Assembly (NCBI RefSeq): GCF_900111365.1
Contig: NZ_FOGZ01000004.1
Location: forward strand, 62,001 to 126,000
Reading direction: 5' to 3'
DNA: 64,000 bases
Source of the DNA: Propionibacterium cyclohexanicum
GTDB taxonomy: Bacteria > Actinomycetota > Actinomycetes > Propionibacteriales > Propionibacteriaceae
Shown: in pieces, positions 8,521 to 28,088 of the stretch
Position numbering within the stretch: the first letter of the stretch is position 1
Layout: every line of letters starts with the position of its first letter
The notes under the pieces: model-generated
The model's input: only the letters and a program-made list of their open reading frames with translations
Told to the model about the DNA's origin: nothing
The model's database searches: none
Made by a program: the position numbers and the translations under genes

Positions 8521-9015
8521 TCAGGGCGTGCCGGGCGTGGTGGACGAGGCGGACTCGTGCTCGGGGATGATCCCGTCCGAGCGAAGCCGGGCAATCTCGT
8601 CGACGAAATCGTCGACTGACTGGAAGTGCTGGTAGACGCTCGCGAAACGCAGATAGGCGACCGGGTCGAGCTGGCTGAGCGGCTTGAGGATCGCGATGCC
8701 CACCGACTCGGTAGGAACCTCCGCGACACCGCTGGCCCGCAGGCTGTCCTCGACGGTCTGGCCAAGCCGGGCCAGCTGGGCCTCGCTGACAGGGCGCCCC
8801 TTGCACGCCTTGCGAACCCCGGCAATCACCTTGTCCCGGCTGAACGGTTCGACCACTCCGGACTTCTTCACGACGACCAGCTGCATCTGCTCGATGGTCG
8901 TGAAGCGGCGCTCGCACTGGGGACACTGGCGACGCCGGCGAATGCTCGCGCCATCCTCGGCCACCCGCGAATCGAGCACCTTCGAGTCGCTGTAATGACA
9001 GTAGGGGCAGTGCAT
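8521..9015 (-). CDS. nrdR: Transcriptional repressor NrdR
   Basis: NrdR represses ribonucleotide reductase genes in response to dATP/ATP. The frame is open to 9075, but the conserved family start [17 protein letters not shown] fixes the ATG at 9015, with GAGGAG upstream; length 164 residues. It has the four-cysteine zinc ribbon (CPYC...CPQCERRF) in the first 34 residues, then the ATP-cone domain ([16 protein letters not shown] onward). It is upstream of nrdJ in the same orientation, and two NrdR-box-like sites lie about 110-155 bp upstream of its start, so autoregulation together with nrdJ is expected. Confidence 0.95.
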
Positions 9016-9337: not shown

Positions 9338-10018
9338 TCAGGACTGGCTGACCTGCGCATCATCCGCCGTCCATGAGCCCGATGGCCCGGGCGCGGCGAC
9401 GGCGGCCGGCTGGGGCGACTGCTGCCCGGTATCGCCGATCCCGACAAGGCTGTACACGACCGCGGCGACGCCCACCGCCATGCAGGCAGCGAAGAATGCC
9501 ATGACGACGGCCAGGCCGCGGGTGGTCAGATACCACCCCGAGCCCGACGAGGGCACAGCCCGGGTCCGCGACGCCGAAGCCGGGACCCGGCTCCCCGCTG
9601 GCAGCGTCCCGCGCGGTGTACCGGCCATCGGCCCACCGGATGTGGGCAGATCGTCCGTTGGCACCACGAAGCTCGCCATTTCCGCCGCGGCGGTTCCTGC
9701 CGGCACCGCTGCGGGGCTGCCCCACAGGTCGATGCGCACAAGGCTCGGACCAGCAGGGCGCTGAGGTGAACCCGGGTTCTTCGGCTGATTCGGCCTGGCC
9801 CGGGGACCACGCGAGTCGCAGCGGGCCGCGGCGAGGTGTCCCTGGGCGCAACGCCCTTGGATGCTGGGCCCTTGGATGCTGGGCCCTTGGATGCTGGGTG
9901 CCTGGGCGCTGGACCCCTGGGCGCTGAGCTGCTGGGACCTCGACCCTCGGGTGCTGGGGGCTGCCAGGCCCCGTCCCCCTTGAGCGCGCATCGCACTCCT
10001 GCACTTCGTGGTGCTCAT
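9338..10018 (-). CDS. SOS-linked single-pass membrane protein, positional counterpart of DivS/Rv2719c, lacking LysM
   Basis: Small membrane protein (226 residues) divergent from lexA. The ATG at 10018 is preceded by AGGAGG at ideal spacing; the frame is open further upstream, but that extension would run through the LexA box and promoter. The N-terminal half is basic and low-complexity, with imperfect pentapeptides of the form S-I/A-Q-G-x (about residues 40-70). One hydrophobic segment (TTRGLAVVMAFFAACMAVGV and the following residues) lies near residues 165-190, followed by a tail of about 35 residues. In mycobacteria and corynebacteria this position holds SOS-induced division inhibitors (Rv2719c/ChiZ, DivS), some ending in a LysM domain. 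I see no LysM here in any frame downstream. A promoter with an overlapping LexA box sits upstream. Role as a damage-induced division suppressor is inference. Confidence 0.72.
   Translation of the reverse strand: MSTTKCRSAMRAQGGRGLAAPSTRGSRSQQLSAQGSSAQAPSIQGPSIQGPSIQGRCAQGHLAAARCDSRGPRARPNQPKNPGSPQRPAGPSLVRIDLWGSPAAVPAGTAAAEMASFVVPTDDLPTSGGPMAGTPRGTLPAGSRVPASASRTRAVPSSGSGWYLTTRGLAVVMAFFAACMAVGVAAVVYSLVGIGDTGQQSPQPAAVAAPGPSGSWTADDAQVSQS
9854..9898. repeat. 15-bp tandem repeat (3 perfect units plus degenerate flank)
   Basis: CCCTTGGATGCTGGG occurs three times head to tail at 9854, 9869 and 9884, followed by two to three degenerate copies up to about 9930. It lies inside the lexA-divergent membrane protein gene and encodes its S-I-Q-G-P pentapeptides. 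A unit of 15 bp keeps the frame, so copy number can vary without destroying the protein. Confidence 0.85.
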
Positions 10019-10086
10019 GCTGGCCTCCTGACCCGCGTGCGCCAAGGCTCTCGCTCTCGACCGAATGCGCGGTGCCAGCGATGCCT

Positions 10087-10112
10087 TCGAACGTATGTTC
10101 GAGTTCATAATA
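10087..10112 (-). promoter_or_regulatory. LexA box and promoter of the DivS-like gene
   Basis: TCGAACGTATGTTCGA (10087-10102) is a perfect actinobacterial LexA operator (GAAC-N4-GTTC with matching flanks). On the minus strand a good -10 hexamer TATTAT lies at 10112-10107, with TGGACG (10134-10129) 16 bp further up as a possible -35. The expected start point near 10100 falls inside the operator, so LexA would block initiation. It is 69 bp upstream of the minus-strand start codon. Confidence 0.8.
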
Positions 10113-10219
10113 GGACACTTGTTCGGTTCGTCCAGTGGATTCGGCTCTCTGGTCCGATTCGACGCCCGCCCGCGCGGCGCCCCCAGTCTCGAGCGGGCAC
10201 TGGAGCACCCCGCCCCTGG

Positions 10220-10342: not shown

Positions 10343-10382
10343 TCGAACAACCGTTTGATTCATCGGCGCTGACCGATATCCT
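10343..10382 (+). promoter_or_regulatory. LexA box and putative leaderless promoter of lexA
   Basis: TCGAACAACCGTTTGA (10343-10358) matches the LexA operator with one base off symmetry (GTTT for GTTC). It overlaps a -35-like TTGATT (10355-10360); 16 bp further is TATCCT (10377-10382). A start point 6-7 bp after that falls on or next to the ATG at 10389, so lexA mRNA may be leaderless, which fits the lack of a ribosome site. This is a standard autorepression arrangement. Confidence 0.68.
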
Positions 10383-10388
10383 GCTGTC

Positions 10389-11234
10389 ATGGCATCCCAC
10401 ACCGCGCGGCCTCATCCGGCACAGACGCCGAGCGCCGACCCCGAGACGGCAACCGCGGTGCACGCCGGTGTCCCGCGGCGAGCGGGTAGGCCGAGCTCAG
10501 CTCGTGTCGATGCCGAACTGCGTGCGGCCCAGCGCCGGCGCGACGCAGCACCCCACGCTCCGGCTCATTGCGCTGCGGGCCCGCGCGAGGAGGAGCTCAG
10601 CCCGCGTCAGCGTCGCATCCTCGAATTCATCCAGATGAGTGTCGAGTCCCGCGGTTACCCGCCGAGCATTCGCGAGATGTGCGACGCGGTCGGTCTCACG
10701 AGCCCCTCGAGCGTTTCCCACCAATTGAAGGTCCTGGAGGCCAAAGGCTTCCTGCGCCGCGATCCCAAGCGTCCCCGCGCCCTCGAGGTGCGATCCATGG
10801 CCGATGCCACCTCGTCCGGGTCCCCGGTCGACGTGACGGACATCGGCGATGCGTTCCCGAACGCGGTCAATGTGCCGGTGCTCGGTCGGATCGCAGCGGG
10901 CGCCCCGATCCTGGCCACCGAACAGGTGGAGGAGGTCATGCCACTGCCTCGCGAGCTCGTGGGCAGCGGAACGGTCTTCATGCTCGAGGTCCGCGGCGAC
11001 TCGATGATCGACGCTGCGATCTGCAACGGCGATTATGTGGTGATCCGCCAGCAGCCCACCGCCGAGAACGGTGACTTCGTCGCTGCCCTCCTCGACGATG
11101 AGGCCACCGTCAAGGAGTTCCGGCGCGTCAACGGTCATCTTCGCTTGCTGCCGCACAACAGCGCCTACGAGCCGATCGATGGCGACCGGGCCACCATCCT
11201 CGGCAAGGTTGTTGCCGTCCTACGACGGGTCTGA
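10389..11234 (+). CDS. lexA: SOS repressor LexA
   Basis: Represses DNA-damage genes and self-cleaves when activated by RecA filaments. In order: an unusually long, probably disordered N-terminal extension (about 65 residues), a winged HTH beginning [12 protein letters not shown] with recognition region [11 protein letters not shown], then the S24 peptidase domain. The cleavage bond Ala170-Gly171 (RIAAGAPI), the nucleophile Ser205 (GDSMID) and the general base Lys242 (ATVKEF) are all present. At 281 residues it is longer than the usual 200-240. No ribosome site precedes the ATG; the promoter position suggests a leaderless message. It diverges from the DivS-like gene and carries its own operator. 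Confidence 0.96.
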
Positions 11235-26895: not shown

Positions 26896-27942
<1,047 letters not shown>

Positions 27943-28067: not shown

Positions 28068-28088
28068 TCTATACGAACACGCGTTCGA
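28068..28088 (-). promoter_or_regulatory. LexA box and -10 of recA
   Basis: ACGAACACGCGTTCGA (28073-28088) contains GAAC-N4-GTTC exactly. On the minus strand it is followed at once by TATAGA (28073-28068), a good -10 for recA. LexA bound here would cover the -35/-10 gap. A clear -35 is not visible. The divergent DUF3046 gene starts 113 bp away on the other side. Confidence 0.82.

Follow-up and report, generated by a model that had tools for sequence, protein, structure and literature searches.

The gene that diverges from lexA in Propionibacterium cyclohexanicum, here called gene X, raises the question of whether an SOS-controlled division inhibitor may work without a LysM domain. The need for LysM in SOS division inhibitors is unsettled: the domain is essential in YneA, dispensable in ChiZ as described, and absent from DivS and SosA. 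A sequence-only reading of the locus had proposed that X, at the position held by ChiZ and DivS, is either a divisome inhibitor lacking LysM or a lineage-specific replacement. The locus was analysed within a window of 64,000 nucleotides (the whole stretch of DNA examined), in lexA loci of the Propionibacteriaceae and in those of other Actinomycetes.

The gene X locus

The features of the locus are collected in Table 1. The reading frame of X begins with ATG, 5 nt after AGGAGG, and its product is a predicted single-pass membrane protein, as the sequence-only reading had described it. NrdR, RecA and RuvC, and the helicase and HflX neighbours, are what we take those proteins to be on recognition of their sequences. 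AlphaFold2, given the single sequence of X (mean pLDDT 51), predicted one helix as the sole element, with block means of 76–93 over residues 161–190 and 37–64 elsewhere. The predicted layout places the basic N-terminus inside, one helix in the membrane and the C-terminus outside. The tail is 27 residues long counted from the AlphaFold2 helix and 38 counted from the best 19-residue hydropathy window, so the earlier figure of 35 residues was a fair one. G+C at third codon positions of X is 0.80 versus 0.68–0.69, only mildly richer.

Table 1 Features of the gene X locus and of the recA-like gene (window coordinates).
Feature	Position	Strand	Description and basis
Gene X	9338..10018	-	226-aa single-pass membrane protein (helix predicted); probable LysM-less ortholog, lexA-divergent ChiZ/DivS-position gene
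Ribosome-binding site AGGAGG of gene X	10024..10029	-	Precedes ATG; read from sequence
lexA	10389..11234, stop included	+	TIGR00498 over cut-off; divergent from gene X
nrdR-like gene	8521..9015	-	Next downstream of gene X; start chosen by the authors
N-terminal residues 1–167 of X	9518..10018	-	Predicted disordered up to helix; net +14 (17 R, 2 K, 5 D+E)
15-nt tandem repeat in X	9853..9898	-	GPSIQ-type units; 3.1 perfect copies and degenerate flank
Inner-edge motif LTTRG, X residues 164–168	9515..9529	-	Sequence and family alignment
Predicted membrane helix, X residues 166–199	9422..9523	-	AlphaFold2
27-residue tail past the X helix	9341..9421	-	Without LysM; net -3 over last 32 residues
Perfect LexA box TCGAACGTATGTTCGA (TCGAAC-N4-GTTCGA)	10087..10102	.	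Pattern search; similar boxes family-wide
Promoter-like site TGGACG-16-TATTAT for gene X	10134..10107	-	Consensus match only
Near-box TCGAACAACCGTTTGA before lexA	10343..10358	.	1 mismatch
recA-like gene	about 26899-27942	-	Recognised from sequence
One-mismatch LexA box	28073-28088		132 nt upstream of recA-like gene; pattern search

The X product matched 0 families in Pfam and 0 in NCBIfam, and a LysM profile run on minus-strand frames of at least 35 residues in the 2.3 kb upstream of lexA in the window gave no match at E ≤ 10. For the protein and for these minus-strand frames, the earlier claim that LysM is missing down to nrdR was borne out. The possibility that a LysM-bearing copy of the gene sits elsewhere was also considered. 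Three LysM matches in genome G000 fall in two reading frames, one of 1036 residues and the other shorter; we take the shorter, by its appearance, to be a secreted Rpf-like protein.

The pentapeptide repeats reported earlier for the N-terminal half stand as a 15-nt tandem repeat in the DNA. Membership of the pentapeptide-repeat protein family was rejected, no Pfam pentapeptide match being found. The repeat was sought in 20 aligned relatives and is not common to them; locus L244 has another repeat at that place.

The LexA box and the promoter

The box upstream of X is the sole zero-mismatch site among five sites with ≤ 2 mismatches in the window. Five such sites were seen against 2.3 expected, a number also attained in 12 of 100 shuffles; weight therefore attaches to the perfection and placement of this match and not to the count. 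The only promoter-like site between 9000 and 10600 is the one listed in Table 1 (0.2 expected in shuffles), and the start point predicted from this consensus match falls inside the LexA box, in agreement with the sequence-only reading. The near-box before lexA probably serves autoregulation of lexA.

The pattern CGAAC-N4-GTTCG occurs at 10 places in the genome of the window compared with 4 for the reversed control, and some of the 10, lying inside long reading frames, may be chance matches. The places include the X/lexA region, the recA-like gene and a ruvC-like gene, and on this pattern the genome looks like one with an ordinary LexA regulon using the same box.

Gene X in the Propionibacteriaceae

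Of 198 Propionibacteriaceae genomes searched for LexA, 180 had a match at E ≤ 1e-30. A set of 106 family loci was assembled from 100 lexA-upstream regions chosen over genera from the matches listed, together with the window, G001, G002, G003, G008 and G014; the loci were oriented by tblastn, the strand of lexA differing between them. X was picked automatically in 100 loci and five picks were judged wrong by eye (G105, G146, G187, G200 and G203); the core profile and charge counts were made without them (n = 95), the LexA-box counts with them (n = 100). The 95 accepted proteins were recognised by position, hydropathy and short tail. A search by motif alone misses genera with WTxRG or with no motif, and hydropathy found those. 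Two more loci later yielded X: G200 at E 1.6e-13, and G206 only weakly at E 0.055, where the FLSVPN tail decided for acceptance.

Across the lexA loci of the family compared in this way, X was recovered in 97 of 106 and was not found in G001, G018 and G105 (625–1,099 bases upstream covered in these three), nor in G130, G146, G159, G166, G187 and G203. LysM was found in 0 of the 106 loci with the LysM profile (threshold E 1e-8; best family E 3.5), so a LysM protein retained at this locus by relatives, which would have spoken against the earlier reading, was not encountered. The profile was built from 102 sequences of these same loci and its positives match by construction; the test therefore lies in the gap in E values, with 130 segments under E 1e-8 and the next at 0.0078, and in the family best of 3.5. 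Pfam LysM likewise matched 0 of 21 Propionibacteriaceae proteins, X included, which places X outside the LysM-containing ChiZ/YneA subtype.

Between the helix and lexA, a perfect LexA box is present in 69 of 100 family loci and one with ≤ 1 mismatch in 95, and the reversed control gave 0 of 100 within 2 mismatches; the scored region spans 165 to 1,825 bases, and a box in it may serve lexA and not X. Past the best 19-residue window, tails run from 5 to 46 residues with a median of 23 (n = 95). The 60 residues before the helix are net positive in 91 of 95 proteins, and the residues after it are neutral or acidic in 84 of 95. The strict motif [LW][TS]xRG was found in 62 of the 95 accepted proteins and is missing from 33, among them 15/15 of g26, 3/3 of g34, 3/3 of g8 and 2/2 of g14. 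In the aligned core, R of the motif is present in 88%, G in 89%, L in 74% and T in 72% of filled rows. The identity of family members to X is 19–35% (20 relatives aligned). Many loci of g26 (L192, L205, L211 and others), a genus code that includes named Arachnia and Tessaracoccus contigs, have a VAGDPAWAHV-like tail after the helix.

LysM-bearing and LysM-less counterparts in other Actinomycetes

For the outgroup, 172 lexA loci of other Actinomycetes were taken from named relatives and from samples; L040 and L245 belong to one genome, giving at most 171 genomes. The syntenic gene carries LysM in 127 of these loci, and of the 34 families sampled outside the Propionibacteriaceae, 32 have LysM-bearing genes. 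This gene, in Nocardioides, Paractinoplanes and other Actinomycetes, resembles X in synteny, LexA box and shared core and differs in the presence of LysM. A further 18 loci, a class selected using the LTRRG-type motif, combine that motif and the helix with a true stop and lack LysM. In the remaining loci, three genes are cut by the end of the available DNA and in 24 none was found (seven with < 1,600 bases upstream; L276 and L277 are counted here). Among 16 outgroup proteins, ten of which had been classed beforehand as LysM-bearing, Pfam detected LysM in 10. A LexA box with ≤ 1 mismatch is present at 112 of the 127 LysM-bearing genes.

Actinoplanes accounts for 16 of the 18 LysM-less outgroup genes (L063, L092, L106, L109 and 12 more loci). 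Each has an LTRRGR-type motif, one helix and exactly 31 residues from motif to stop, and four of the proteins, with the start placed by the ribosome-binding site, are 45–46 residues in total. The boxes of these LysM-less genes are weaker, with 9 of 16 at ≤ 1 mismatch and 16 of 16 at ≤ 2, against 0 of 16 within 3 for the control. Two more LysM-less cases, L023 (G023) and L292 (G292), are each confined to a single lineage and keep an LTxRG motif.

In family f7, the helix proteins that diverge from lexA at L276 (G299) and L277 (G237) have neither LysM nor the motif and are possibly DivS-like. The aligned LysM-bearing f7 locus L267 is also without the LTRRG motif. Gene X was found in 0 of 3 loci of family f19, which we assume to be Streptomyces. 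If that guess is right, the result agrees with a remark in part of PMC9380542 that Streptomyces is without clear homologs.

Homology, loss of LysM and constraint on the core

A core profile was built from the 18 residues before the helix window and the 28 from its start in the 95 Propionibacteriaceae sequences and was run on 11,098 reading-frame segments of the outgroup loci. At E ≤ 1e-3 it matched 30 segments, of which 29 are the syntenic gene, and at E ≤ 0.01 it matched 64, of which 60 are the syntenic gene. With 60 of 148 outgroup syntenic genes recovered at E ≤ 0.01, specificity is high and sensitivity modest; matches of the membrane helix may partly reflect hydrophobicity. Because 29 of the 30 matches of the profile at E ≤ 1e-3 fall on the syntenic gene, X appears to be an ortholog, and these sequence comparisons favour reading it as the gene of the ChiZ/DivS position after loss of LysM and not as a replacement. 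We therefore do not favour the lineage-specific replacement offered by the earlier reading. That an unrelated gene took the place of a ChiZ-type gene at the Propionibacteriaceae lexA locus would account for the low identity of family members to X and for the third of them that lack the strict motif; with the outgroup gene picked almost alone by the core profile, and with place, orientation and box the same, we consider such a replacement highly improbable.

Mapped on a LexA tree with 104 rows, the presence or absence of LysM requires 4 changes (shuffled mean 24) and the starred branches force at least 3; the tree is a quick one, of a single gene, with few starred branches and only 9 family rows. 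All 9 rows of the Propionibacteriaceae group together (support 92), as do the 16 of Actinoplanes (94); the Actinoplanes clade lies inside LysM-bearing relatives and thus favours loss of LysM there. The remaining two LysM-less changes are the single rows G023 and G292. To judge by these sequences, the absence of LysM is family-wide and recurrent, with a separate loss in Actinoplanes that led to proteins of ~45 residues.

Core pN/pS over 32 codons was 0.35 in LysM-less Actinoplanes (16 species) and 0.17 in LysM-bearing relatives (16), and it was 0.18, 0.26 and 0.55 in three Propionibacteriaceae genera, the highest value being that of g30. These values are means over non-independent pairs from hand-chosen sets (4 of g7, 11 of g30, 4 of g9, 16 Actinoplanes and 16 LysM-bearing relatives). 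The core is constrained, with pN/pS < 1 in five of five sets, and in the Actinoplanes comparison it is looser without LysM. The same values bear on whether X is the decaying, functionless remainder of a ChiZ-like gene that lost its LysM through a truncating mutation. The variable N-terminus and tail, the tandem repeats, the motif missing from 33 of 95 proteins, the g30 value and the doubling of pN/pS in LysM-less Actinoplanes relative to LysM-bearing relatives would all suit decay. However, the open frame and helix persist in 97 of 106 loci, a box with ≤ 1 mismatch in 95 of 100, pN/pS stays below 1 throughout, and no LysM remnant was found in minus-strand frames near these genes, which makes decay improbable.

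Genera with lost or altered LexA

Direct reading of twelve more genomes that had no close lexA match (7 of g14 and 5 of g4) showed that all keep a short-tailed X-like gene, in none of which was LysM visible by this reading. We presume that g14 is Cutibacterium and g4 Acidipropionibacterium. In g4 (L237–L241; G006 and G037–G040), lexA is missing between X and the helicase-like gene. TIGR00498 was absent from four of the five g4 genomes and gave in the fifth a 64-bit match in a 138-aa frame, so that no full lexA was found in them. The CGAAC-N4-GTTCG box is absent at X in g4, though X is kept, and this retention points to a use or a regulator of X outside classical LexA control.

LexA was found in 7 of 9 g14 genomes (L230–L236) in a divergent form, scoring 49–70 bits against a curated TIGR00498 cut-off of 111. 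Upstream of X in g14 no classical box was seen. All 7 of 7 loci share the stretch CCGCTCCCGTCAGCG there without a difference; it is nearly an inverted repeat and by its sequence could be a changed operator. X may be under another regulator in both genera.

Comparison with known systems

ChiZ (Rv2719c) of mycobacteria is, like X, a lexA neighbour with a basic, disordered cytoplasmic N-terminus and one helix, and differs in its outer LysM, the two being compared by description. Passages of PMC7355643 describe ChiZ 1–64 as a disordered inner region of net +10, report two-hybrid contact with FtsQ and FtsI, and state, second-hand, that the N-terminus and helix suffice for filamentation and Z-ring mislocation. 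The LysM of ChiZ is described as not necessary in a passage of PMC3989709. By analogy, X has the predicted layout of those parts of ChiZ that are reported as sufficient.

DivS of Corynebacterium glutamicum had been cited in the sequence-only reading as a holder of this position, in contrast to which X was noted for its missing LysM; this requires correction, because DivS and SosA are both without LysM according to a passage of PMC6851548. DivS is likened to X by that description, as a lexA neighbour with a single helix and no LysM. SosA of staphylococci is, as partly described there, lexA-divergent and LexA-controlled (for X, a box by sequence), has a single helix and no LysM, and inhibits division; it has 77 aa, belongs to another phylum and has a conserved stretch just C-terminal of the helix, so that the likeness is one of layout only. 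YneA of Bacillus subtilis, an SOS-induced division inhibitor, shares with X the lexA neighbourhood and the single helix and differs in that its LysM is essential for activity. Passages of PMC13396833 state this requirement and report binding to FtsW; models described there put ChiZ and SosA on FtsW TM7 and are called not of high confidence by their authors.

Proposed role of gene X

The explanation that we favour, and hold to be rather probable on sequence and analogy, is that X, a LysM-less ortholog of the lexA-linked gene, would be induced in the SOS response and inhibit division by acting with its helix on the septal machinery. DNA damage would inactivate LexA, X would be made, and the protein would insert into the membrane so that the basic, disordered N-terminus stays in the cytoplasm while the short tail lies outside. 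The helix and its inner edge ([LW]TxRG in most, not all, genera) would then engage the septal wall-synthesis complex, at FtsW, FtsI or FtsQ, and so delay division until repair. In LysM-bearing relatives LysM would be an accessory and not the inhibitory part. The locus, the box, the core homology and the absence of LysM are read from sequence, and from them we infer the induction, topology, target and phenotype of X. The half of the earlier reading that made X a LysM-less divisome inhibitor would fit synteny, box, shared core and the reported sufficiency of the ChiZ parts.

The pN/pS values below 1, the boxes at the recA-like and ruvC-like genes and the charge pattern across the helix were counted in favour of this explanation. 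Counted against it were the strict motif missing in 33 of 95, the core profile recovering only 60 of 148, the 9 of 106 loci without X, the requirement of YneA for LysM, the low-confidence FtsW models and the presence of X in g4 without lexA or box. The last of these would also suit an SOS-induced membrane protein with a different task and without a divisome component as its direct target. Such a protein might, being small and hydrophobic, reduce the energisation of the membrane or modify the envelope once damage has occurred; the single helix of X, the LexA box before its gene and the shortening to ~45 residues in Actinoplanes could point that way. We regard this as unlikely, since X has the same locus, orientation, box and core as the LysM-bearing genes, LysM in the relatives points to wall work, and published phenotypes, as partly described in the sources above, are known for ChiZ, DivS, YneA and SosA at such loci.

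Beyond the septal inhibitor proposed for X, a wider reading is tentative and held at somewhat less than even confidence. In it, the helix and inner edge would be the working part of an actinobacterial lexA-linked division checkpoint, and LysM would be an accessory that has disappeared several times (the four changes fall in the Propionibacteriaceae, in Actinoplanes and in two single lineages), leaving in Actinoplanes a microprotein of ~45 residues; in g4 the gene would have outlived LexA and be run by another signal. Our confidence in this wider reading, already a little short of even, was lowered slightly because the motif is present in 62 of 95 proteins and not in nearly all.

Implications

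The kind of protein is already known, and the absence of LysM alone is familiar from DivS and SosA; the recurrent loss of LysM and the ~45-residue form are new as far as literature searches show. Among the matches listed for Propionibacterium, Cutibacterium, Actinoplanes and actinobacterial LexA regulons, titles and abstract openings contained no description of gene X. For structural studies of FtsW, FtsI and FtsQ, the Actinoplanes form with its ~45 residues offers a minimal candidate inhibitor, and the repeated natural loss of LysM with the helix under constraint amounts to an evolutionary experiment on the need for LysM. The small lexA-adjacent membrane protein is probably a brake on cell division, and its loss of LysM in the Propionibacteriaceae suggests that the wall-binding domain is optional for that brake.
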